Positions 2,942-15,243 of a DNA stretch of 64,000 nt are shown in pieces. Where the stretch lies: NCBI RefSeq assembly GCF_006363955.1, contig NZ_CP040948.1:1426001-1490000 (forward strand), given 5' to 3'. How positions within the stretch are numbered: position 1 is the first letter of the stretch; every line of letters starts with the position of its first letter. Both the position numbers and the translations under genes were made by a program. The DNA is from Methylophilus medardicus (GTDB lineage: Bacteria; Pseudomonadota; Gammaproteobacteria; Burkholderiales; Methylophilaceae). The notes under the pieces were generated by a model. It was not told the DNA's origin and searched no databases. It worked only from the letters and a program-made list of their open reading frames with translations.

Positions 2942-4531
2942 ATGATGAAGCCTTTAACCTTTGATAACCGATTTGTCCGCGAACTCCCGGGCGACCCAAT
3001 CACTGACCTGTATACCCGACAGGTTAGTGACTGTTTATGGTCAGCCGTGCAACCCACCCCCGTCAAACAGCCGCAGTTACTGGCTTACAGCCCCCAAGTG
3101 GCAGAGATGCTCGGCTTGAGTGATGCCGACATGCAAGCGTCTGCGCTCATACAAACCTTGGGCGGCAACGGTACCCTCCCCGGCATGTTTACTTATGCCA
3201 CTCGCTATGGCGGCCATCAATTCGGGCACTGGGCAGGTCAACTAGGCGATGGACGTGCGATTTATTTAGGTGAATTGCTTCACGCAGGCAAACGCTTCGA
3301 GCTGCAACTTAAAGGCGCAGGCGAAACGCCCTACTCTCGTTCGGCAGATGGCCGGGCGGTACTACGTTCAAGTTTACGTGAGTTTTTATGTTCTGAAGCC
3401 ATGCATGCGCTTGGCGTGCCGACGACGCGCGCGCTGAGCTTGGTGACCACCGGCAATCAAGTTGTCAGAGATATGTTTTACGACGGCAACCCACAGCTAG
3501 AACCGGGCGCAATCGTATGCCGGGTCGCCCCCTCGTTCACGCGATTTGGTCATTTTGAGCTATTGGCCAGTCGCGATGAATTGCCCTTACTCAAGCATTT
3601 GATCGGCTTCACGCTAGACCGAGATTTTGCCGACTGGTGGCCGAGTACCGGTATCGCCTTGGATATTCACCAGCCAGATCCGGGCTTAATCGAAGCTTGG
3701 TTTGCCGAAATATGCACACGCACGGCAATTTTAATTGCACACTGGATGCGCGTCGGATTCGTGCATGGCGTAATGAATACCGACAATATGTCTATCCTCG
3801 GTTTGACGATCGACTACGGTCCCTATGGCTGGATAGACAATTTTGACCCAAGCTGGACCCCCAACACCACCGACGCGCAAGGCCGCCGTTATTGTTTTGG
3901 CCGCCAACCAGATATTGCGCGCTGGAACCTAGAGCGCTTGGCTGAAGCGTTGGCCAGCGTTTTGCCCGCGAATCATACACTGGCGCAAAGCTTGGCCGTT
4001 TTTGACCAGACCTATGTACGTGAGCTCACGCATGCGCTTGCCAATAAATTTGGCTTTGATCAATGGCAGGACGGCGATGGCGAGCTGGTGAATCAGATTT
4101 TTGAGTTGATGCAGCGTGCCGAAGTCGACCAAACCTTGTTTTTTTCACGCTTGGCTACCCTCGACCTTCACGCACCGCAGCTATCCACGCTCTCCGATGC
4201 TTTTTACACCGCACAAGGACAGCAACAATTTGGCGCCGATATCCAACAATGGTTGCATCACTACACGCAACGCATCCTATCCGCTGGTATCGCTCCGGCA
4301 ACGCGGTTGCAAAAAATGGCGTCAGCCAATCCCATTTATGTGTTGCGCAACTATCTCGCACAAGAGGCGATTGATTTAGCGACAGCAGGAGATCACAGCC
4401 GCCTGCTCACGCTGTTAAAAGTATTAAGCCAACCGTATACCTGGCAGACAGGGATGGAAGCGTTCGCGCAAAAGCGTCCAGACTGGGCACGGCAAAAAGC
4501 CGGTTGCTCGATGCTGTCGTGTAGTTCATAA
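2942..4531 (+). CDS. selO: SelO-family protein adenylyltransferase (YdiU)
   Basis: At 529 residues this is full length for bacterial SelO, a pseudokinase that transfers AMP to Ser/Thr/Tyr of target proteins. It shows YGGHQFGHWAGQLGDGRA (about 89-106), the lysine-bearing LQLKGAGETPYSRSADGRA (121-139), HGVMNTDNMS (275-284) and the metal-site DYGP (291-294), all in SelO order. The protein ends in Cys-Ser-Ser; eukaryotic SelO carries selenocysteine at this third-from-last position, so the redox-tail cysteine is kept. Two ATGs (2942, 2945) are possible; the second gives the usual MKPLTFDNRF start. The Fur-family gene starts 8 bases after its stop, suggesting one transcript. Confidence 0.95.
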   Translation: MMKPLTFDNRFVRELPGDPITDLYTRQVSDCLWSAVQPTPVKQPQLLAYSPQVAEMLGLSDADMQASALIQTLGGNGTLPGMFTYATRYGGHQFGHWAGQLGDGRAIYLGELLHAGKRFELQLKGAGETPYSRSADGRAVLRSSLREFLCSEAMHALGVPTTRALSLVTTGNQVVRDMFYDGNPQLEPGAIVCRVAPSFTRFGHFELLASRDELPLLKHLIGFTLDRDFADWWPSTGIALDIHQPDPGLIEAWFAEICTRTAILIAHWMRVGFVHGVMNTDNMSILGLTIDYGPYGWIDNFDPSWTPNTTDAQGRRYCFGRQPDIARWNLERLAEALASVLPANHTLAQSLAVFDQTYVRELTHALANKFGFDQWQDGDGELVNQIFELMQRAEVDQTLFFSRLATLDLHAPQLSTLSDAFYTAQGQQQFGADIQQWLHHYTQRILSAGIAPATRLQKMASANPIYVLRNYLAQEAIDLATAGDHSRLLTLLKVLSQPYTWQTGMEAFAQKRPDWARQKAGCSMLSCSS

Positions 4532-4539
4532 TTTTTATT

Positions 4540-5007
4540 ATGCAAACTGCTGAACAATTGATAACAAACGCTGCGTTACGCCCGACCAAGGCACGCATTG
4601 CGGTATTGAACACTTTGATAAACTCCCCCACTGCCTTAAGCCACACCGAGATTCTGTCAGCGTTGCAAGGGGTCAAGGAAATTGATCGGGTCACGGTATA
4701 CCGTGTATTGGACTGGCTACAGGAACATGCACTCATTCATAAAATTTCAAGCGATGACCGCGCCTGGAAGTTCCAATTAAATAGCCCTAAACGCAGTTTT
4801 AAAACACCTGCAAATACTTCCTCGGGGATGATCAACAACCACGGTCATGCCCATCTACACTGCCAATTTTGCGGCACGGTTTTATGCATACATGAACTGG
4901 CTGCACATATCCCCCAAGCCATTTTTGATACCTATCAAGTTTCTCAGATTGAAATCAGCTTGAAGGGCCGTTGTCCAGATTGTCAATCTACAGTTGATAG
5001 CAATTAA
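4540..5007 (+). CDS. zur: Fur-family metalloregulator, Zur-like
   Basis: A 155-residue Fur-superfamily repressor. The N-terminal winged helix includes RPTKARIAVLNTL (about 14-26) and the recognition-helix region EIDRVTVYRVLDWL (47-60). A histidine-rich sensor segment HGHAHLHC (101-108) leads into the structural zinc site C108-x2-C111, paired with C145-x2-C148. Zur rather than Fur is inferred from context: the next genes are a COG0523 zinc chaperone and DUF1826, and their promoter carries palindromes. If that is right, it represses zinc-acquisition genes when zinc is plentiful. It sits 8 bases after selO. A general Fur/Zur-family label is certain; the Zur assignment is moderate. Confidence 0.8.
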   Translation: MQTAEQLITNAALRPTKARIAVLNTLINSPTALSHTEILSALQGVKEIDRVTVYRVLDWLQEHALIHKISSDDRAWKFQLNSPKRSFKTPANTSSGMINNHGHAHLHCQFCGTVLCIHELAAHIPQAIFDTYQVSQIEISLKGRCPDCQSTVDSN

Positions 5008-5035
5008 AAGTCGTTTTTAACAATATTTAGGCGGG

Positions 5036-5069
5036 CTTGACCCCATCAAAGGTTTGATCTGCGGTCAAG
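5036..5069 (+). terminator. Bulged hairpin after zur, possible terminator or REP-like element
   Basis: Outer arms CTTGACC and GGTCAAG (5036-5042, 5063-5069) enclose perfect inner arms ATCAAA and TTTGAT (5045-5050, 5053-5058). The sequence after it (TTTCAATTT) is only weakly U-rich, so it could be a poor terminator or a REP-type palindrome. I saw no second copy in this window. Confidence 0.4.
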
Positions 5070-5279
5070 TTTCAATTTAACGTCGATTAAATATGAACGC
5101 AGCATTTGTCCACCGCTATTGACCGTCTTTTTAGTCGGTATCATGCGTCGACCTGAGCCCTACAATCAATTCGCACACCCCTCCCTCGTCACTTAAGCCT
5201 AATCCTCTAGCGCTCTATTCATAGAACATGCTTCGGCATGCGCAAGAATTATTCGAACATCATGCATGTTGATTACTTT

Positions 5280-5355
5280 CATTAATTGCAACAAAGTTGC
5301 AATTAATGTGTATGCGCTATAAAATGCAACTTTACTGCATTGCAACAAAGTTGCT
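5280..5355 (+). promoter_or_regulatory. Zur-type operator array overlapping the promoter of the zinc-chaperone operon
   Basis: Three related palindromes lie in 76 bases. Site 1 (5280-5308) is perfect, with 13-base arms CATTAATTGCAAC and GTTGCAATTAATG around AAA. Site 2 (5325-5339) is degenerate, TGCAAC-TTT-ACTGCA. Site 3 (5341-5355) is TGCAAC-AAA-GTTGCT. A TATAAA -10 (5318-5323) and a TTGCAA -35-like hexamer (5297-5302, 15-base spacing) are interleaved with sites 1 and 2, so bound protein would block RNA polymerase. The neighbouring Fur-family gene is the obvious candidate binder. That is inference. Confidence 0.72.
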
Positions 5356-5435
5356 TATTAAATGGTATTTCTATCACTCGTGATATTTATCGGCAAAGAC
5401 CTATCGCAAGCCCGTTTTGAAGAAGGACTCAAATT

Positions 5436-6689
5436 ATGTCTGGTTTAAGCACTGCACTTGTCAAAAAACTCCCTGTCACCGTGCTCTCCGGTTTTTTAGG
5501 GGCGGGTAAAACCACCCTGCTCAACCATATCCTGAATAACCGTGAAGGCAAGCGCGTAGCGGTCATCGTCAACGATATGTCAGAAGTGAATATCGATGCG
5601 CAACTGGTCCGTGATGGCGGCGCGGCCCTCTCTCGCCAAGAAGAAAAACTGGTCGAGATGAGCAATGGCTGCATCTGCTGCACCCTGCGCGAAGATTTAC
5701 TGGTAGAAATCACACGCCTTGCCAAAGAAGGCCGCTTTGATTATTTGCTGATTGAAACGACCGGCATTTCAGAACCGTTGCCCATTGCCGAAACTTTTAC
5801 CTTTGCCGATGAAGATGGCAACTCACTTGGTGATGTAGCGCAATTGGATACCATGGTGACCGTGGTCGATGGCTACAACTTTCTCAAAGACTATAGTTCG
5901 CAGGACATGCTGGGCGACCGTGGAGAATCACTGGGAGAAGCAGATGAGCGTACCGTGGTCGACCTGCTCGTAGACCAGATTGAGTTTTGTGATGTACTGA
6001 TTCTCAACAAAACCGACCTCATGACACCGTCCGAGATCGGTCGGCTAGAAGGGATTCTGAAAACACTGAATCCACGTGCGCAATTACTGCACAGTAGCTT
6101 TGGCAAAGTCCCGCTTAATCGCATCATAGATACCGGCTTGTTCGACTTCGACCAAGCCGCGGAAGCGCCGGGCTGGTTGCAGGAATTGCGTGGCGAGCAT
6201 GTGCCAGAAACCGAGGAATATGGAATTTCGAGCTTTGTATACCGTGCTCGCAAACCGTTTCACCCACAACGGCTTTGGCAGTGGTTTAACACCGAATGGC
6301 CAGGCGTGGTGCGTTCAAAAGGCCGCTACTGGATCGCCTCGCGCCCTGATTTCTGCGCCACTTGGTCACAGGCTGGCGCCGTTACGCGTACCGAACTGGC
6401 AGGCATGTGGTGGGTAGCCACCCCAAGTGAATACTGGCCAGAAGATGCGGACAGTTTTCAGCACATCAAGTCACGCTGGCAAGAGCCCTACGGTGACCGC
6501 CAACAAGAACTGGTCATTATCGGCATGCAGATGGATAAAGCGGCACTGACTGCACAATTTGATGCCTGTCTAATGAGCGAAGCTGAAATTGCGCTTGGTA
6601 TGGAAGCCTGGCGTACTCTGCCAGACCCCTTCCCGCAGTGGTCAGTCAACCTGCCTGCAGAAGAGGATAGTGTTGAGGAGGTGCTTTAG
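5436..6689 (+). CDS. COG0523 GTPase, zinc metallochaperone (ZigA/ZagA/CobW-like)
   Basis: A 417-residue G3E-family GTPase. It has Walker A GFLGAGKT (19-26), the hallmark metal-binding C-x-C-C motif [12 protein letters not shown] (C79, C81, C82), the [10 protein letters not shown] switch and an LNKTDL base-recognition motif, followed by a CobW C-terminal domain. COG0523 proteins deliver metals to client enzymes. Zinc-responsive members are typically Zur-controlled and sit beside zinc-transport or zinc-sparing genes, as here. The operator array lies 80-155 bases upstream of the start, and GAAGGA precedes the ATG. DUF1826 follows directly, coupled by a two-base gap. Zinc as the metal is inferred from the regulator and neighbours. 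Confidence 0.9.
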
Positions 6690-6690
6690 G

Positions 6691-7368
6691 ATGCTCGCCG
6701 CCAGAGATGTCGCACCAAACACGCCGCCGCATGGATTCGCTGCGCAGCCGCTTTTTAATCCACTTGCGTTATTGCCGATTTTTGATGATGCGCAGCAAGT
6801 CTGTGTGGTGCCACGCAGGTTCGATAGCACCATTCATGACTATCTGGCACAAAATGCCCATCATATGGCGCCGGGCTTCCGTATGGTACTCAATGCCAAG
6901 CAGGCAATCCGATCACAAATTGGCGGTCAATTCACATTATTTGACGGGGACGGCAAGGAGGCCTTGCTGGCAGATATGGCTCACATTGCCACGATTTATG
7001 CAGATTTGCTGGATTGCCCACACATCGGTATGCGGCTAGAAATCCTGTCGCATGCCATGTGCCCCAAGTTTCATATTGACCGTACAGGCATCCGTTTAAT
7101 CTGCACTTATCTAGGGCCCGGCACCGAATGGTTGGATGAAGCCTATTGCAACAGAAACGCGTTTACAACCCCCGCTAGCGCACAAGATGCCTTTCATCAG
7201 GCCTTGATTTTGCACCCTCAGGGTATCCACCAAGCAGCCGAGCAAGCGCTAGTGTTGCTTAAAGGTAGCTTGTGGCAAGGCAACCAGCATGCAGGTGCAG
7301 TGCATCGCTCCCCGCAGATTGAAACAGGGAGCACACGCGTGGTACTAGCGCTGGATGCAATATGGTAA
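6691..7368 (+). CDS. DUF1826 family protein, zinc-regulon associated
   Basis: A 225-residue protein of unknown function. The segment CPKFHIDRTGIRLICTYLGP, followed by GTEW, at about 130-154 is characteristic of DUF1826, with H-x-D and cysteines that could hold a metal. The ATG at 6691 was chosen over upstream in-frame codons because it follows the preceding stop by one base and has AGGAGGTG 8 bases ahead. Members of this family often sit beside COG0523 chaperones, as here, so a role in zinc handling is likely but unproven. It shares the upstream gene's promoter. No signal peptide or membrane segment, so probably cytosolic. Confidence 0.8.
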   Translation: MLAARDVAPNTPPHGFAAQPLFNPLALLPIFDDAQQVCVVPRRFDSTIHDYLAQNAHHMAPGFRMVLNAKQAIRSQIGGQFTLFDGDGKEALLADMAHIATIYADLLDCPHIGMRLEILSHAMCPKFHIDRTGIRLICTYLGPGTEWLDEAYCNRNAFTTPASAQDAFHQALILHPQGIHQAAEQALVLLKGSLWQGNQHAGAVHRSPQIETGSTRVVLALDAIW

Positions 7369-7635
7369 ACCTGCCTATTTAATACTTGCTGACATGCATA
7401 AAGAATATGCCAACAAATGAGACGCCAGATCACACCAGCAATACTCAGCGGCTTTACAGTTTTCTTGAATAGTGCCACGCAATTTTCAGCAAAAACGCTT
7501 GGCGCCCAATTTATAAAGATGCTTATTTTAAGAACTAAAAGTTAAAAATAATCCTGATGGCAAAAAACTGGCGCTGCAGGCGGGAAACAACCACAGAAAT
7601 TCATTTTGAAATATCACTTACAGGGAAGAAACATC
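7369..7635. other. 267-base gap before the TonB receptor gene
   Basis: No gene seen. The sequence is AT-rich near 7510-7555 and could hold a promoter, but no clear -35/-10 pair, riboswitch or operator palindrome was identified. No terminator is evident after DUF1826, so read-through from the zinc-chaperone operon into the receptor gene is possible. Confidence 0.4.
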
Positions 7636-9738
7636 ATGCGTCAAAAAACAATCGCCAGCTTGCTGGCACTTTTGTTATTACCTGTCGTGCCCGCCGTGGC
7701 TGAAGAAGCAACCGGGACAGACAACACAAACACGCGTAGCAACGCTAAACAAAAAACAGAAGAAAGCGCAAGCGTAGAGCTTGACAGTGTGGTTGTGCTT
7801 GGCAAGCAGGAGCAAATGACCGCTACAGATAAAGGCCTCGCAGGTTCAGTCGACGTTATCACGCGCGAGGAGCTGGAATACGAGCATGTGACTGACACGC
7901 TGGAGCTGTTTAGCAAAACGCCGGGGGTTGTCCTGTCACGCTACAGTCAGGGCATCGTCAACACCGAAGTCTCAATCCGCGGCTTTAGTGGTGACGGCGA
8001 AACACCCAATGCCAAAGTGCTGGTGGACGGGATTCCCTCCAACCTTTTTTCAGGTTTAAGCGAACTTGATTATTTATTCCCAACCAATATCCAGAGTGCA
8101 CAGGTTTTTAAAGGCACCAGCGACGCTAGCACTGGTCTGTTTGCGACCGCAGGTAGCTACAAGGTCGAAACCCGCAAAGATGTGGCTAAACAATTACAGT
8201 TTGGCTATGGCAGTTTTCAGACACGTGAGATGCAAGGCTACTATGGTGACAAGCAAGGCGATTTCACGCAGAACTACGCGATAGGCTATCGCAAGGGCAA
8301 CGGGTTCCGTGCCAATACTGAGAACGAAAAAATAGCGATGTCTGGACGCTGGCAGATGGATTTCGAACAATCCAGCCTGGCGTTGAGCGCAAAATACGGC
8401 AAATACAACGCGCCTGAGGCCCCGGGATATATGTCGAAACAGCAGGCACGCGATGATCGTAGAGGCGTCGCCCCCAATGCACTAAATGATAGTGGCGAAA
8501 AAGAGTTCAAACATTTGAGCCTGCATTATGATTATTTCTTTAACAACGATGTGGATTTGAGCCTGAAGACTTATTGGCAGAACTTTGATCGTGAACGTAA
8601 CGTGCGTTTTATTGGGTCACCCGGTCTTGAAAATAGACAAGAGAATCAAACCTCCACTGGGCTGATTGCGAAGTTAAACTGGAAAATAAATCCGCACTGG
8701 GGCTTTGAAACAGGCTACGACATTGAGCATCAAGCGGTTGATCAGTTTAACCAAAGAGTCAATGCGGCTGGCGTGAATGTGATTCGGTTAAGCACTGACT
8801 ACGACTTCACGGCCCAAGGCATCTATGCAAAAGTTGAAAATACGCCAGTTGACTGGTTACGCTGGAACGTTGCTTTACGCGCTGACCGATTGGATGCAAA
8901 AGCCAATGGTCCTATTATTATCGGTACAAACGCTAACCCAGCCAGATTGATTCCAACTGATTTGTATAGTGATCCGATGATTGTCCAACCAAAATTTAAT
9001 ATATTTGCCAATGTGACCGAACAACATACTCTGTTTGCCAATGCAGGTCGTAGTTTTCAAACCCCCACCAGTTTCAATTTAAATCAGTTTAATTCAGCTG
9101 CGGGTGCCAACTTTGGCACAAGAACTGATATCCAGGTTGCGATCAATGATGGCTGGGAGCTTGGTTTTAAAAGTATCTGGACGGCTGGATTGAATACCCG
9201 GGTATCTTACTGGCAACAAAAAGCCAAAAACGAGTTTATTACCATCGACAACATTCGTCAGCCGCTTGGGGAAACGCTGAGGCAAGGTGTCGATGCCAGC
9301 TTCGATTACAAGCTCAACGATGCACTCAGCTTTTGGGGCAATGTATCGAGGGTTTATGCCAAGATTGAAGAGCCAAACTCGCAAAATCCGCAGTTTAAGG
9401 GAAATAATATTCGCAGCATCCCCTCCTACACGGCCTCAGTTGGTCTGCAATTTGTACCCAGTGCAGACTGGATTGCGCGCGTTCATGTGGATAGCCAGGG
9501 CGATTACTATATCAACGAAAGTAACTTGGGTGGCAAATACGGCGGCTATACACTCACCAATGCCAATATTGATTACAAAACCAGCTGGGGCCGCGTTAGT
9601 CTGTTAGCGAACAACATTTTTGACCGGTATTATGAGTATGTATTCGATTTCAATTCAAACGGCAGCGCCGGAGGCGTCAACTTCGCTCCCGGGGCAGGCC
9701 GTAACTTTATGCTCACTGCCACGGTAGACTTCAAATGA
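7636..9738 (+). CDS. TonB-dependent outer-membrane receptor
   Basis: A 700-residue receptor. The signal peptide MRQKTIASLLALLLLPVVP ends near AVAEE. The TonB box/plug entry is DSVVVLGKQ, and plug motifs include DVITREELE, LELFSKTPGV, SIRGFSGDG and VLVDGIPSN. A 22-strand barrel follows, ending with an aromatic-containing strand (TATVDFK). The ATG at 7636 has AGGGAAG at the right distance and gives a clean signal peptide; an upstream in-frame codon at 7606 does not. The stop overlaps the start of the ABC ATPase (ATGA), so receptor and transporter are made together. The ligand is unknown; context suggests a zinc complex or metallophore. No GCAAC-type palindrome is visible in its own 267-base upstream region. 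Confidence 0.93.
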   Translation: MRQKTIASLLALLLLPVVPAVAEEATGTDNTNTRSNAKQKTEESASVELDSVVVLGKQEQMTATDKGLAGSVDVITREELEYEHVTDTLELFSKTPGVVLSRYSQGIVNTEVSIRGFSGDGETPNAKVLVDGIPSNLFSGLSELDYLFPTNIQSAQVFKGTSDASTGLFATAGSYKVETRKDVAKQLQFGYGSFQTREMQGYYGDKQGDFTQNYAIGYRKGNGFRANTENEKIAMSGRWQMDFEQSSLALSAKYGKYNAPEAPGYMSKQQARDDRRGVAPNALNDSGEKEFKHLSLHYDYFFNNDVDLSLKTYWQNFDRERNVRFIGSPGLENRQENQTSTGLIAKLNWKINPHWGFETGYDIEHQAVDQFNQRVNAAGVNVIRLSTDYDFTAQGIYAKVENTPVDWLRWNVALRADRLDAKANGPIIIGTNANPARLIPTDLYSDPMIVQPKFNIFANVTEQHTLFANAGRSFQTPTSFNLNQFNSAAGANFGTRTDIQVAINDGWELGFKSIWTAGLNTRVSYWQQKAKNEFITIDNIRQPLGETLRQGVDASFDYKLNDALSFWGNVSRVYAKIEEPNSQNPQFKGNNIRSIPSYTASVGLQFVPSADWIARVHVDSQGDYYINESNLGGKYGGYTLTNANIDYKTSWGRVSLLANNIFDRYYEYVFDFNSNGSAGGVNFAPGAGRNFMLTATVDFK

Positions 9739-10448
9739 CCGCATTACTATCCATTGAACAACTCAGCCTGCGCTTTGCTGGGCGTGACATTCTGCAACAA
9801 CTTGCGCTCACGCTACAGGCTGGAGAAGTGGTTTCGGTATTGGGCAGCAATGGCGCAGGCAAATCCAGTCTACTCAAGAGCATTCTGGGCCTGCATCCAG
9901 CCAAAGTCGATCAAAGTGGGCAAATTCTGATTGCAGGAGTTGACATTTCACAAGCGCGTTCGCAGGCGTTGTCGCATCTAGCTTACGTACCAGAACAACC
10001 TGCGGTCTATGGTCACCTGTCGGCCATTGAGAATATCCACTACTTTCTGAGCCTTACCACAATGAGCCAGACGATGGATATACCGACCTGTTTAACGATG
10101 GTGGGCTTGCCGGAACAAGCCTGGCGGCGCCCATGCAATGAATATTCTAAAGGCATGAAACAAAAGGTCATGCTGGCGCTCGCGCTGGCAAAACAGGCCA
10201 CCTTACTATTGTTAGATGAACCAAACTCAGGCCTAGATCCGCAAGCCACCGAAGAGCTTAACCAGCTGATCCTACAGTGCAAAAACAAGGGTATGGGCGT
10301 GCTGGTAGTGACGCATGATGTGTTATCAGCCATGGCATTTTCTGACCGCTTGCTGATGCTGGCCAACGGTCAACTGCAGCCGGTATTGCTGGATCAATCC
10401 ACACTGACGCTACAAAACCTCAAACAACTGTATCAAGGACAGGCATGA
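9735..10448 (+). CDS. ABC transporter ATP-binding protein (partner of DUF3526 permeases)
   Basis: A 237-residue ATPase. Walker A is GSNGAGKS (37-44), the signature region reads YSKGMKQKV (Lys-Gly in place of the usual Ser-Gly-Gly) and Walker B is LLLLDEPNSGLDP, followed by the switch histidine in VVTHD. The variant signature is common in CcmA/NatA-type ATPases that drive ABC-2 transporters. It overlaps the receptor gene upstream and the first permease downstream by four bases each (ATGA), so the four products probably form one unit. Direction of transport cannot be read from the ATPase; ABC-2 systems are usually exporters, which is odd beside a TonB receptor. Confidence 0.9.
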   Translation: MTALLSIEQLSLRFAGRDILQQLALTLQAGEVVSVLGSNGAGKSSLLKSILGLHPAKVDQSGQILIAGVDISQARSQALSHLAYVPEQPAVYGHLSAIENIHYFLSLTTMSQTMDIPTCLTMVGLPEQAWRRPCNEYSKGMKQKVMLALALAKQATLLLLDEPNSGLDPQATEELNQLILQCKNKGMGVLVVTHDVLSAMAFSDRLLMLANGQLQPVLLDQSTLTLQNLKQLYQGQA

Positions 10449-11854
10449 ACGTCTCCCCTGTATGGACCATCGCTTGCAATGAATGGCGACGCTGGTGGCA
10501 TGCCCGCGTACCTACCTTACTGCTCACGGGTTTGCTGGTATTGTGGCTGGTTGCAACGTTCGCTGCACACCATCACTGGCATGACCACGCGCGCACAGTG
10601 GCAGAAGTCACCCTACGCAGCCAGCATGATTGGCAATCACAGCCCGACCGACACCCACACCGGGTATCCCATTTTGGTGATTTTGTCGCAAAACCCTTGC
10701 ATCCACTGAGTGTGATTGAGCCAGGGATTATCGACCAGTCCGGGCATCTAGTCTATCTGGAAGCACATCGTTTAAACAGTGCCAATTTCAACCCTGCGAC
10801 CGAGGCCACCAGTCTGGGCCGGTTTCCGCTGATGACGCCCGGCATGATTGTGCAATGGTGGATGCCGCTATTTTTGATCATGATCGCGTATGCCACCGTC
10901 ACCGCAGAAAAACTGGCGGGCACGCTGGCTTATATGCGTGGCAACGGCATCCCGGCCAGGCAGATTGCAACAGGCAAATGGCTGGCCCTGTTTTTGCCGT
11001 TTCTGCTGCTATTGTGCCTGCAAGCCTTATGGGCTGGCCTCTGGAGCTGGCAGAGTGATCAGGCCATGCTCAGGCTGGGCTTGATGCTGCTTGCACAGTT
11101 GCTATATTTGGCAGGCTGGTGCGGGCTGGTGGTAGCCGTGTCTTGGTGGAGCCGGCAACTGCATACGGCTTTGTTAACCTTGCTTTTGTGCTGGATATGC
11201 ATGTGTATTATTTTTCCGCGCGGCTTGGCCAATCTGGCGCAGGTGCTGCACCCAACGCAGCCGCGCACTGAGGCTGAATACCATGCTGAAATCAAACTCA
11301 AAACGCTAGGCGATAGTCACAACCCGGATGACACGCATTTTGCTGCCTTCAAAGCCGAAACGCTTAAAAAGTATGGCGTATCACGTACCGAGGATTTACC
11401 TATCAATTATAACGGACTGGTGATGCAGGAAGGCGAACGCTTGACTACTGCGGTCTACCGCGAACAGCAAGCCATTCATGATGCACAACTGGCTAAACAA
11501 AATGCGCTGATTCGACACTGGTTATGGCTAAGTCCAGCACTGGCCATGCAATATGTGCAGATGGCCAGCAGCGGCAATGACCTCGCACATCATCAAGCCT
11601 TTATTAGGCAAGCCGAAGCGCGCCGTTATCAGCTGATTCAATACTTGAATCAGATTCATACAATCAAAGTGTCGCAGGCAGAGGATAAAAATACCCGCGT
11701 GGATGCCGCGTTTTGGCAAAACGCTCCACGCCAGACGGTACATCTGGCCACCATCGACGTCAGTCGCACCACCCTTCTGGTCTCGTTACTGGTATTGCTG
11801 GGCTGGATTGTCTTGCCTTGCGCACTGCTTTACAAAGTGAGTCAACGCACATGA
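10445..11854 (+). CDS. ABC-2 type permease, DUF3526 family (first of two)
   Basis: A 469-residue membrane protein. An N-terminal membrane segment (about 20-40: TLLLTGLLVLWLVATFAA) is followed by a large extracytoplasmic loop, then about five hydrophobic helices from residue 135 to 275, a second loop and a C-terminal helix (LLVSLLVLLGWIVLPCALL). This N-loop-TM-loop-TM plan is that of DUF3526 ABC-2 permeases. It overlaps the ATPase and the second permease by four bases each. The two permeases are similar in plan but clearly diverged, so they probably form a heterodimer over an ATPase homodimer. Substrate unknown; the big periplasmic loops could interact with a receptor cargo or maturation enzyme. 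Confidence 0.82.
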   Translation: MNVSPVWTIACNEWRRWWHARVPTLLLTGLLVLWLVATFAAHHHWHDHARTVAEVTLRSQHDWQSQPDRHPHRVSHFGDFVAKPLHPLSVIEPGIIDQSGHLVYLEAHRLNSANFNPATEATSLGRFPLMTPGMIVQWWMPLFLIMIAYATVTAEKLAGTLAYMRGNGIPARQIATGKWLALFLPFLLLLCLQALWAGLWSWQSDQAMLRLGLMLLAQLLYLAGWCGLVVAVSWWSRQLHTALLTLLLCWICMCIIFPRGLANLAQVLHPTQPRTEAEYHAEIKLKTLGDSHNPDDTHFAAFKAETLKKYGVSRTEDLPINYNGLVMQEGERLTTAVYREQQAIHDAQLAKQNALIRHWLWLSPALAMQYVQMASSGNDLAHHQAFIRQAEARRYQLIQYLNQIHTIKVSQAEDKNTRVDAAFWQNAPRQTVHLATIDVSRTTLLVSLLVLLGWIVLPCALLYKVSQRT

Positions 11855-13116
11855 AACACGAACTGAAACTGCTGCTCAAGCAACGCAGCATGGTGCTGCT
11901 GGTGCTACTCAGTCTGATACTCACCAGCCTCAGCCTGCAAAATGGCTGGCAAAATATCGCACATATCCGCACACAAATCCTGCACGCACAGCAAGAAGAA
12001 AGCTTGCGCAAGCAGGACTACCTGCAAAGCCATCAACACAATAGCACACTGGATGCGGGTGAACTCGGCTATTACCTATTTCATAATGTCTACCATGCTC
12101 CCAACGACTGGAGTTTTATTGCACTGGGCAATCGTCTGGTCACGCCATATGTGCAACGCATCCGCCTGCTAGGCTTGCAGGGGCAGCTCTATGATGGCGA
12201 GTCGCATCATCCGGAATATGTGATGCTGGGCAGCTTTGATTACGCTTTCTGGCTGGTGTTTTTTTCGCCGCTGCTCTGTATCGCACTGTTGCATGACCTC
12301 AAAGCCAGTGAACAGCAGGCCCATCGGCTGCTGTTTTTAAACAGCCTGCTAGTCAAACCTGTACAGTTCTGGTTTAAACGGGTGATGGCACGCTGGCTGC
12401 TGATTGCCATCGTGTTCACCTTGCCTCTCACCGCCTTTGCCGCCCTGCACATGCTGTCACCAGGCCCGCTGCTGCTGGTAATGGCCATCACCCTGCTTTA
12501 CACCCTGTTCTGGACAATTCTGTGTACCGTCGTCAGCTTGCATGCCCGCGCGCTCAATGGCAGTTTCAATGCCATGTTACTAACAGGTGTCTGGCTACTG
12601 ATGTGTGTGTTATTGCCCAATCTGGCACAACTATGGTGTCATACGCACCTGCCTGTTGAGGACGGCAGCCAGATTGCCCTGCAACACCGGCAACTAGTGC
12701 ATGGCGCGTGGGACTTAACCAAAACCGAAATCCTGATACCTTTTTACGATTTATATCCGCAATGGCGCGATACCCCGCCCGTCACTAGCCGCTTTCACTG
12801 GAAATGGTATTTTGCCTTTCAACACATGGCGGATGTCAAACTGGCACCGCAGGTGACTGCGCGTGAACAGGCCCTGACGCAGCGTGATCAGGCGACACAA
12901 CAGCTGGCTTACTGGCTGCCGGGATTATGGGTACAGCGCCGACTGGAGGATGTTGCGCAAAGTAACGTGACACATTTGCTTGCACACCGGCAGCAGATTG
13001 AACAGTTTCATACACAACTGAGGCACTTTGTGTATCCGTTTTTGTTTGAGGAAAAACCGTTTACCAAGGAAGACTTCCAGCACCTGCCAATCTTCGCGTC
13101 TGCAAAGGCCGATTGA
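11851..13116 (+). CDS. ABC-2 type permease, DUF3526 family (second of two)
   Basis: A 421-residue permease that starts at the ATG overlapping the previous stop (ATGA); longer in-frame starts lie inside the upstream gene and are unlikely. It has one N-terminal helix (MVLLVLLSLILTSLSLQ), a periplasmic loop, helices such as FWLVFFSPLLCIALL, WLLIAIVFTLPLTAFAAL, LLLVMAITLLYTLFWTIL and LLTGVWLLMCVLLPNL, then a long hydrophilic C-terminal part. Unlike its partner it lacks an obvious final helix. It ends 10 bases before the convergent M14-type gene, with no terminator between them, so antisense read-through is possible. Substrate unknown. Confidence 0.82.
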   Translation: MKHELKLLLKQRSMVLLVLLSLILTSLSLQNGWQNIAHIRTQILHAQQEESLRKQDYLQSHQHNSTLDAGELGYYLFHNVYHAPNDWSFIALGNRLVTPYVQRIRLLGLQGQLYDGESHHPEYVMLGSFDYAFWLVFFSPLLCIALLHDLKASEQQAHRLLFLNSLLVKPVQFWFKRVMARWLLIAIVFTLPLTAFAALHMLSPGPLLLVMAITLLYTLFWTILCTVVSLHARALNGSFNAMLLTGVWLLMCVLLPNLAQLWCHTHLPVEDGSQIALQHRQLVHGAWDLTKTEILIPFYDLYPQWRDTPPVTSRFHWKWYFAFQHMADVKLAPQVTAREQALTQRDQATQQLAYWLPGLWVQRRLEDVAQSNVTHLLAHRQQIEQFHTQLRHFVYPFLFEEKPFTKEDFQHLPIFASAKAD

Positions 13117-13126
13117 ACACAGGTAG

Positions 13127-14182
13127 TTATTGCGGGACGCCGATGTCTGTTGTCGATTCGCCTTGGCGAATGGGCGGTGTTTCTTGTTGAATGAGCACCG
13201 TTCCAGCCACCGGGGCATACAACGTTTCCAACAGCTCGCCAAAGTAATTTTCTACCCGCCCCACGGCTTGCCCTGACACCACCGCGTCGCCCACTTTGAC
13301 CAGTGGATAAAAAATACCGGTCACCGAGCTGCGCACCTCCATCAGCTTGCGATAGAGCACCGGCTGTAAATTGGATTGGCTAGTCGCCGAATCCATAGCA
13401 CTACCGTTTATCGCTGATGCATCAAGCATACTCAAATGGCGCATGGCGTTCAGGCATGCTTGCACAATACTTGCACTCTCGGCTGTTGAACGACTTGCTA
13501 ACTGACCTACCTCCAGCGTCAAACCGGGTTTGCCTCGAGTTTGTGCCGTATTTGGAAAAGACACCGAGCGCATTGGGTCATTCGGCCGCTCGTCGTAGAG
13601 CACAATCTGCGGGATACCCAGTGATTTGGCAAATGCCAATGTTTTCTCATCCAGCAAAGCCTGATGCATGACTGGAGAATACACATGCGGTAACAACGAC
13701 TGGTTAGCGCTGCCGGAGTGAATATCGATCAAATAATCCGCTTTGTTGATGATCTGCTCAGTCATAAAATAGGCAATTCGCTCCGTGAGGGTGCCATCTG
13801 ATTTGCCAGGGAACACTCGATTGAGGTTTTTTTCATCCACTGGACTTAATGCGATACGTCGCGCATGAAAGCCTTCCAGATTGGCAAGATGCACTACGAT
13901 GATGGTGCCATGCAATTGTTCAGGTTGGATCAACTGCTTGATTTGCTGCAAGGCAAAAATCGCCGGAAACTCATCGCCATGAATGCCCGCAGTCAATGTC
14001 AGCACCGGGCCAGCATGCAGACCATGGATCACCGTTATCGGCAAGGCAGTTGTCGAGACTGGTTGCATCCAAGACAGCATCGTCCCAGGGGCGACGCTGT
14101 TCTCCATGAATTGCAATGTTGGCTGCGCCCAGGAAGTTGGCAACCCGCCTAAAAAAAATACAATGAAAAACTTACGCAGCAT
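13127..14182 (-). CDS. Secreted M14-type zinc deacylase (succinylglutamate desuccinylase/aspartoacylase family)
   Basis: A 351-residue protein whose first 19 residues (MLRKFFIVFFLGGLPTSWA) form a signal peptide, so it acts in the periplasm. The zinc site is G-I-H68-G-D-E71 with H155 in LIDIHSG. NLNRVFPG (119-126) is the substrate-arginine segment and LTLEVG carries the candidate catalytic Glu. The C-terminal part, with APVAGTV, resembles the biotinyl/lipoyl-like fold of this family. Members hydrolyse amide bonds of N-acyl amino acids; a periplasmic version could process an imported chelate. A palindrome with the GCAAC-N3-GTTGC core lies 36-48 bases upstream, tying it to the zinc-chaperone promoter. 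The physiological substrate is unknown. Confidence 0.85.
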   Translation of the reverse strand: MLRKFFIVFFLGGLPTSWAQPTLQFMENSVAPGTMLSWMQPVSTTALPITVIHGLHAGPVLTLTAGIHGDEFPAIFALQQIKQLIQPEQLHGTIIVVHLANLEGFHARRIALSPVDEKNLNRVFPGKSDGTLTERIAYFMTEQIINKADYLIDIHSGSANQSLLPHVYSPVMHQALLDEKTLAFAKSLGIPQIVLYDERPNDPMRSVSFPNTAQTRGKPGLTLEVGQLASRSTAESASIVQACLNAMRHLSMLDASAINGSAMDSATSQSNLQPVLYRKLMEVRSSVTGIFYPLVKVGDAVVSGQAVGRVENYFGELLETLYAPVAGTVLIQQETPPIRQGESTTDIGVPQ

Positions 14183-14210
14183 ACAAACCCATCACAAAAT
14201 TTTACCAACA

Positions 14211-14231
14211 CAACAATGCAACATTGTTGCG
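14211..14231 (-). promoter_or_regulatory. Second Zur-type palindrome, upstream of the M14 deacylase gene
   Basis: GCAAC-ATT-GTTGC at 14218-14230 matches the core of the operator array at 5280-5355. The overlapping AACAATG-CAA-CATTGTT (14213-14229) is also a perfect palindrome. On the minus strand a TAAAAT -10-like element lies downstream of it, between the palindrome and the start codon, so the site would cover the -35 region. Position fits repression. Confidence 0.6.
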
Positions 14232-14464: not shown

Positions 14465-14536
14465 ATGTGGACTAAACCAGCTGCTACTGAAATGCGTTTT
14501 GGCTTTGAAGTGACTATGTACGTCATGAATAAATAA
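14465..14536 (+). CDS. pqqA: PQQ precursor peptide PqqA (orphan copy)
   Basis: A 23-codon gene encoding MWTKPAATEMRFGFEVTMYV followed by M-N-K. It has the exact length and layout of PqqA, with the crosslinked Glu15 and Tyr19 in the E-V-T-M-Y motif that PqqE joins to build pyrroloquinoline quinone. AAGGAG sits 6 bases before the ATG. A hairpin terminator follows within 15 bases and no pqqB-E genes are nearby, so this is a stand-alone monocistronic copy. PQQ is the cofactor of periplasmic methanol and other alcohol dehydrogenases, consistent with a methylotroph. Extra pqqA copies separate from the biosynthetic operon are known in some methylotrophs. The short length makes similarity by chance worth considering, but residue-level agreement is very good. 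Confidence 0.93.
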   Translation: MWTKPAATEMRFGFEVTMYVMNK

Positions 14537-15225: not shown

Positions 15226-15243
15226 TATTGACTTGGGTCAATA
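15226..15243 (+). promoter_or_regulatory. FNR/CRP-family site in the ompW promoter
   Basis: TATTGAC-TTGG-GTCAATA is a perfect palindrome with the TTGAC-N4-GTCAA half-sites of FNR/FixK/Dnr-type regulators. The -10 TACAAT (15264-15269) would place the start near 15276, so the site is centred at about -41.5, the class II activator position. E. coli ompW is known to be FNR-controlled, which supports the reading. Confidence 0.72.

Follow-up and report, generated by a model that had tools for sequence, protein, structure and literature searches.

The window analysed here, a stretch of 64,000 nucleotides of the Methylophilus medardicus genome (contig NZ_CP040948.1, positions 1,426,001 to 1,490,000), contains at its positions 4540 to 14231 a gene neighbourhood that we on balance read as a Zur-repressed zinc-starvation locus of the ZnuK/ZnuGHI type, in which a secreted M14 enzyme of the AspA/AstE type would cut an amide of the zinc ligand. 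The locus combines a Fur-family regulator, the zinc metallochaperone gene zigA, a DUF1826 gene, a TonB-dependent receptor and an ATP-binding cassette (ABC) ATPase with two DUF3526 permeases of the ABC-2 type, here called a and b. Judged from sequence comparison, control of the locus by Zur is highly probable, and a role in zinc acquisition is likely.

Zur control is indicated by the palindrome GCAAC-N3-GTTGC. Four copies are present in the window against 0.24 expected, a number that none of 100 shuffles reaches. Three of them are intergenic (5288, 5342 and 14218) and one lies within selO (4298). The earlier note on this DNA had reported the palindrome core at two promoters; it is real, with two boxes before zigA and one upstream of the M14 gene. 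The two zigA boxes enclose a promoter-like pair, which taken alone is no better than chance. In the entire host genome (2.6 Mb, single contig) we find 12 copies of the palindrome and two of the backward pattern. Seven of the eight copies outside the window fall within open reading frames (ORFs). The lone intergenic one (C1:680113) lies between two ORFs read as urease subunits, 67 bp upstream of the one read as urease beta, and does not match the narrower pattern introduced below. A search of the same genome allowing up to three mismatches gave, over roughly the first 1.4 Mb that its listing covers, a backward control about one third as large and was not used.

The key evidence comes from comparison across 22 Methylophilus genomes, 37 genomes of the family and 14 control genomes. 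PF12040, the DUF3526 family, is found in 13 of the 22 Methylophilus genomes, each with two neighbouring matches. The double box spaced by 54 bp precedes zigA or its operon in eight of these 13, and the other five (G004, G005, G014, G016, G021) have one exact box each. The box of the M14 gene, GCAACATTGTTGCG, is identical in all eight Methylophilus loci that carry this gene and in a locus of a Methylotenera metagenome-assembled genome (MAG), L223 (9/9, own locus included). The narrower pattern TGCAACNWWGTTGC has 40 distinct sites in the genus, 33 of which stand at zigA, dksA, ZIP or M14 promoters and three inside ORFs; two more are upstream of a 113-residue ORF in M. aquaticus, and two (G004, G007) were left out of the placement count. 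The pattern gives 29 forward and 28 reverse matches, compared with 3 and 4 for the backward control. No site is present in the three genomes that lack a zur match (G010, G015, G019), and 17 of the 19 that bear zur have at least one. Given this promoter placement across the genus and the tracking of sites with zur presence, the identity of the palindrome as the Zur box is strongly, though indirectly, supported.

The targets found in relatives are consistent with this assignment. There, the box stands upstream of a ZIP transporter gene (in five Methylophilus relatives) and of a DksA gene, one of each being confirmed by Pfam; both are counted as Zur targets in the part of a review available to us (PMC6103462). 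Other genera of the family also have double boxes that share this core, at a spacing of 38-39 bp: they stand upstream of a gene run containing zigA in L163, L164 and L165, out of five genomes of those genera in which zur gives a match. In L163, whose genome is without DUF3526, the 39-bp double box is followed by genes for ZIP, COG0523, an amidohydrolase, a DksA-like protein (by eye) and ZigA. As a separate observation, the palindromes of the M. aquaticus locus L149 lie at 4501 and 4536, 35 bp apart; the 113-residue ORF downstream of them reads like a Flp-type pilin and has no Pfam or NCBIfam match. A double Zur site is also described for the promoter cobW1p of a COG0523 operon in Cupriavidus metallidurans, where, according to the accessible part of that report, Zur departs under more extreme zinc starvation (PMC11340326). 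The likeness to the zigA promoter is one of double-site layout.

The regulator itself is assigned as Zur from its context. Its translation shows a Fur-family fold with the C-x2-C pairs CQFC and CPDC, and among solved structures the protein comes closest in sequence, each time weakly, to E. coli Zur (4mtd) and PerR (2fe3). The genome contains two FUR-family matches, the locus gene and a much stronger full-length match elsewhere, which we take to be Fur.

Pfam and NCBIfam profile searches of the window proteins (Table 1) bear out the consecutive series of Fur-family, zinc-handling, receptor/ABC and M14 genes described in the earlier note; SelO precedes the series, and the AstE/AspA-type enzyme closes it on the opposite strand. 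ZigA exceeds the NCBIfam equivalog cut-off. The gene overlap claimed for the receptor/ABC set is likewise present, with the ATPase and both permeases each starting inside the 3' end of the preceding gene. Permease a is also above the cut-off for the ABC-2 membrane family PF12679, and permease b matches PF12040 alone. The receptor shares 58-91% identity with those of 12 other Methylophilus loci and has no match among solved structures by sequence. In L051 (G021) and L055 (G014), DUF1826 and the first receptor are separated by a second TonB receptor of 704 residues and a 114-residue histidine-containing protein; this second receptor was checked by Pfam in L055. The earlier note had named lack of conservation outside the source strain as a result that would speak against its proposal; we find the neighbourhood conserved across Methylophilus, and operators, conservation and zur tracking lend good, if indirect, support to the proposed zinc and Zur control. 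Beyond the locus, a PqqA precursor gene of 23 residues (14465-14536, plus strand; TIGR02107, 40.4 bits, cut-off 20) sits between the promoter of the M14 gene and a gene for an OmpW-like protein.

Table 1. Genes and candidate operators of the locus, with positions in the window
Feature	Position	Strand	Profile match or sequence
Fur-family regulator, assigned as Zur	4540..5007	+	PF01475 42.3 bits
zigA, COG0523 zinc metallochaperone GTPase	5436..6689	+	NF038288 685.6 bits (cut-off 600)
DUF1826 protein	6691..7368	+	PF08856 167.3 bits
TonB-dependent receptor, ZnuK-like position	7636..9738 (ATG at 7636)	+	PF00593, PF07715
ABC ATPase, ZnuG-like position	9735..10448	+	PF00005
DUF3526 ABC-2 permease a	10445..11854	+	PF12040 100.8 bits
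DUF3526 ABC-2 permease b	11851..13116 (ATG at 11851)	+	PF12040 89.4 bits
Secreted AspA/AstE-type (M14) zinc amidohydrolase	13127..14182	-	PF24827 111.9 bits
Zur-box candidate 1, zigA promoter	5288..5300	.	GCAAC-N3-GTTGC; overlaps -35-like hexamer
Zur-box candidate 2, zigA promoter	5342..5354	.	GCAAC-N3-GTTGC; 54 bp from box 1
Zur-box candidate, M14 promoter	14218..14230	.	GCAAC-N3-GTTGC

DUF1826 is found in 11 of the 13 Methylophilus genomes with a DUF3526 pair and in 0 of the 9 without. Its reading as a zinc-starvation gene is supported by a Zur study of Francisella novicida, in which, in the portion of the paper available, RNA-seq picked out a DUF1826 gene (PMC5786701). The same source states that the DUF1826 domain occurs in predicted succinylglutamate desuccinylases (PMC5786701); the statement concerns a DUF1826 gene and no distinct enzyme, and in the present locus DUF1826 and the M14 enzyme belong to separate Pfam families.

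The receptor and ABC genes resemble znuK (CC1517) and znuGHI (CC1518-1520) of Caulobacter crescentus, described in the available sections of the original report as a Zur-repressed TonB receptor, an ABC-2 ATPase and two ABC-2 permeases (BMC Genomics 2014, PMC4176598). In both organisms a TonB receptor adjoins an ATPase and two ABC-2 permeases. In contrast to M. medardicus, the receptor and ABC genes of Caulobacter are divergent and the box is of the type GTTAT-N3-ATAAC, and no M14 gene is seen in the regulon as given in those sections (PMC4176598). CC1519 and CC1520 would be DUF3526 proteins, as suggested by the PF12040 match in Caulobacter vibrioides. The earlier note had called the combination of a TonB receptor with an ABC-2 transporter unusual. 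This is not supported, and the pairing is rejected as a novelty, as the same layout is already known from Caulobacter and is the setting in which DUF3526 pairs commonly occur. Across 398 Pseudomonadota genomes sampled for spread, PF12040 is found in 21 (own included), 20 of them with two matches, and a Pfam-confirmed TonB receptor adjoins the pair in 16 of the 20 other proteobacterial loci; L196 and L207 have other genes at the tested receptor place, and L200 and L208 stand outside the receptor count. Among 12 plasmid records with a relative of permease a, 10 were opened and 8 are annotated, and the receptor belongs to the gene run in seven of these eight loci, Methylocystis bryophila being the exception.

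Some of these more distant loci also carry boxes. In a set of 32 loci, which includes L229 without DUF3526, the Caulobacter-type box GTTAY-N3-RTAAC occurs nine times compared with 0.9 in mononucleotide shuffles. Five of the nine belong to the operon or to a regulator next to it (L202, two in L203, L214, L209), which amounts to boxes at the DUF3526 operon in three of the 20 sampled loci and, in a fourth (L209), before the adjacent Fur-type gene; the remaining four are at other places in L201, L203, L204 and L214. The L214 box is placed between divergent receptor and ATPase genes, as in Caulobacter, and shares 17 of 19 bases with the published znuG box. GCAAC-N3-GTTGC has five copies across the same 32 loci, a count that comes without a shuffle comparison. 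Two are in L197, at 6861 before the receptor/DUF3526 run and at 15243 before a neighbouring LolD/MacB-like ABC transporter, an arrangement reminiscent of the Zur-controlled zrm genes of Pseudomonas. One stands before the receptor gene in Spirosoma (L227), one about 290 bp before an upstream gene in Aureibacter (L228), and the L210 copy is inside a gene.

Because ZnuA (PF01297) is found in 1 of the 22 Methylophilus genomes, the DUF3526 ABC transporter may stand in for ZnuABC. In the family set the count is 2 of 37. The sole ZnuA-bearing Methylophilus genome, G019 (82% complete), has no Zur and no DUF3526 match. The M. medardicus genome itself gives no PF01297 match and so does not show the ZnuA component of a ZnuABC importer. 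Among the 14 control genomes, PF12040 matches Caulobacter vibrioides only, where ZnuA gives no match. ZnuA and the DUF3526 pair are not strictly exclusive, since G048, from another family of the order, has ZnuA together with a DUF3526 pair and an adjoining DUF1826 gene. The locus would thus resemble the ZnuABC and AztABC importers in its proposed physiological role, whereas it differs from them by having no ZnuA-type binding protein and by ABC-2 permeases with large loops.

The M14 enzyme contains the catalytic domain with H..E..H zinc ligands that defines the AspA/AstE family, and its N-terminus is signal-peptide-like by eye. Among proteins of known structure, 3cdx and the N-acetyl-diaminobutyrate deacetylase DoeB (6twl) are nearest to it. 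The putative ligands H68, E71 and H155, whose roles we assume from the AspA/AstE family, and N121-R122 do not vary among the Methylophilus proteins, that of L224 included, or in two Hymenobacter proteins. The enzyme shares catalytic fold and zinc ligands with the AspA/AstE/DoeB amidohydrolases; unlike them, it is predicted to be secreted and is linked to a receptor/ABC set. This linkage, proposed in the earlier note, is real. Within the genus the gene occurs in 8 of the 13 genomes with a DUF3526 pair and in 0 of the 9 without (Fisher test, relatedness ignored), and in all eight it lies directly beside the pair in convergent orientation. A plasmid of Hymenobacter volaticus, from the Bacteroidota, carries TonB, ABC, DUF3526, DUF3526 and M14 genes in a row, the M14 protein being 37% identical. 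The Hymenobacter tibetensis M14 protein, which ranks just above the H. volaticus copy, does not adjoin such a set. We found no report of an AspA/AstE enzyme under Zur control among the literature matches listed.

The gene set, its operators, their conservation and the gene linkage come from comparison, and from these we infer Zur binding, read-through, transport direction and the M14 substrate as follows. When zinc is scarce, Zur would leave the GCAAC-N3-GTTGC operators. This would allow expression of zigA, DUF1826 and, via read-through, the receptor/ABC genes, and the separate Zur-type operator would switch on the M14 enzyme. The TonB receptor would carry zinc, free or chelated, into the periplasm, where the M14 enzyme could hydrolyse an amide of the ligand and release zinc or a transportable product. 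The ATPase and the two DUF3526 permeases would then move zinc or this product at the inner membrane, replacing ZnuABC, and ZigA and DUF1826 would handle zinc inside the cell. A zinc-using enzyme made in zinc starvation would make most sense as an aid to gaining zinc. For the M14 enzyme acting on the ligand we see a real possibility, slightly on the doubtful side; for import across the inner membrane, the balance is even.

A number of observations weigh against this scheme. On the side of regulation, the locus regulator does not reach the NCBIfam Zur equivalog NF008646 (30.7 bits against 167), so that the name Zur depends on context; NF008646 is a PRK11639-type model, and a distant Zur can fall below its cut-off. 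Two zur-bearing genomes, G006 (88% complete) and G018 (80% complete), have no TGCAACNWWGTTGC site. The 267-bp gap upstream of the receptor gene contains no exact box, and Zur control of the receptor/ABC genes therefore depends on read-through from zigA-DUF1826, by which we infer them to be expressed. Outside Methylophilus, most DUF3526 loci have neither box type, so Zur control is suggested there for a minority only. On the side of transport, ABC-2 transporters are usually exporters, the locus has no binding-protein gene, and the single ZIP match of the M. medardicus genome is some 320 kb from the locus. For Caulobacter, no znuGHI mutant phenotype is seen in the available part of the report (PMC4176598). 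On the side of the enzyme, M14 is missing from 5 of the 13 Methylophilus genomes with the pair. It is found beside the pair in none of the 20 sampled proteobacterial loci, though L200 gives a weak hit of 16 bits at a distance of 8 kb, and it is not annotated beside the pair in the other seven of the eight annotated plasmid loci. The receptor/ABC core thus does not require M14. Given its place beside the pair in Methylophilus and Hymenobacter volaticus and its absence beside most DUF3526 pairs, the M14 enzyme is, on this genomic evidence, an optional partner joined to the same transporter in two phyla.

This optional character could also mean that M14 is a separate zinc-starvation enzyme, scavenging nutrients or N-acyl amino acids, which shares Zur control and position with the locus and has no role in zinc entry. 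The convergent orientation in Methylophilus and the promoter box of its own would fit such an enzyme, as would its absence beside most pairs. However, the same five-gene set recurs in different orientation on the Bacteroidota plasmid, and in Methylophilus the gene occurs only together with DUF3526, with the reservation on relatedness made above. We judge a separate enzyme rather unlikely.

The features of permease a raise a second alternative, in which the ABC-2 transporter works like the NosDFY copper system: it would use ATP to take zinc off the chelate, or to relay it within the periplasm, via the histidine motif of permease a, and ZIP would import the ion. Permease a has a near-invariant P-H-x3-H ... 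E-x-H motif after its first membrane segment; H72, H76, E106 and H108 are kept in 30, 30, 29 and 31 of the 31 rows outside Methylophilus and L223. By hydropathy, residues 44-128 lie between segments 1 and 2, and this stretch is probably periplasmic, provided that the N-terminus is inside. The motif is conserved in permease a only, since in permease b no histidine is conserved in at least 75% of the wider rows, which here number the Methylophilus row L224 among them. The seven best structural matches of the permease a model are NosDFY chains, taken as NosY by length, which would point to an ABC-2 permease fold in a metal context. The boxed ZIP genes of the five Methylophilus relatives, and a ZIP-like gene (by eye) after a Zur-type box in one Methylotenera MAG, would supply the importer. 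Yet the matches are weak (expectation value E of 0.6 or more, low template-modelling scores), with none in Foldseek at E 0.001 or better, and the permease a profile has no match among solved structures up to E 1. The prediction, made from 11 close sequences, has a mean predicted local distance difference test score (pLDDT) of 62.6, with the motif region below 50, and because of this low confidence the model cannot tell whether a site is made up by the conserved residues. Unlike NosDFY, the locus has two different DUF3526 permeases and a TonB receptor and lacks NosD and NosZ, and no NosD-like partner was found among its genes. We consider a hand-over of this kind improbable.

Still less probable is export, in which the ABC-2 pair would secrete or recycle a zincophore, the receptor would return the loaded form and M14 would trim the ligand for recycling. 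The mostly export-type ABC-2 architecture is in line with it, as is the overlap of receptor and ABC genes, which probably form one transcript. Among the locus genes, however, Pfam and NCBIfam recognise no metallophore biosynthesis gene, and several loci hold receptor, ATPase and two permeases without such genes alongside. We consider it very unlikely that the transported metal is cobalt, nickel or an iron chelate in place of zinc, and that Zur control is there for a stand-in metal. In favour of this, several more distant DUF3526/TonB loci (L198, L199, L201, L204 and L206) have no Zur, ZigA or DUF1826 hit; against it, the locus is linked in Methylophilus to ZigA, DUF1826, ZIP, DksA and Zur, and ZnuA is absent.

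Our reading thus remains that of a Zur-repressed locus of the ZnuK/ZnuGHI type. Beyond that, DUF3526 pairs could represent a separate class of metal-handling ABC-2 transporters in which a conserved periplasmic P-H-x3-H / E-x-H site on one permease receives zinc, free or chelated, from TonB receptors, and which replaces ZnuABC in several lineages, with a co-controlled periplasmic amidohydrolase opening a specific acylated zincophore so that zinc is freed by cutting; as a whole, this generalisation is speculative and we would not expect all of it to hold. In a limited literature search we found no paper using the name DUF3526, nor a description of the DUF3526 link, the link to the largely ZnuA-less Methylophilus, the conserved histidine motif or the M14 partner. 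Methylophilus would offer a lineage of culturable methylotrophs whose zinc entry may hinge on the DUF3526 transporter family, and the locus draws attention to a zinc-using enzyme produced when zinc is scarce. It bears on whether an ABC-2 architecture can import metal, and on whether bacteria cut zinc chelates in the periplasm.

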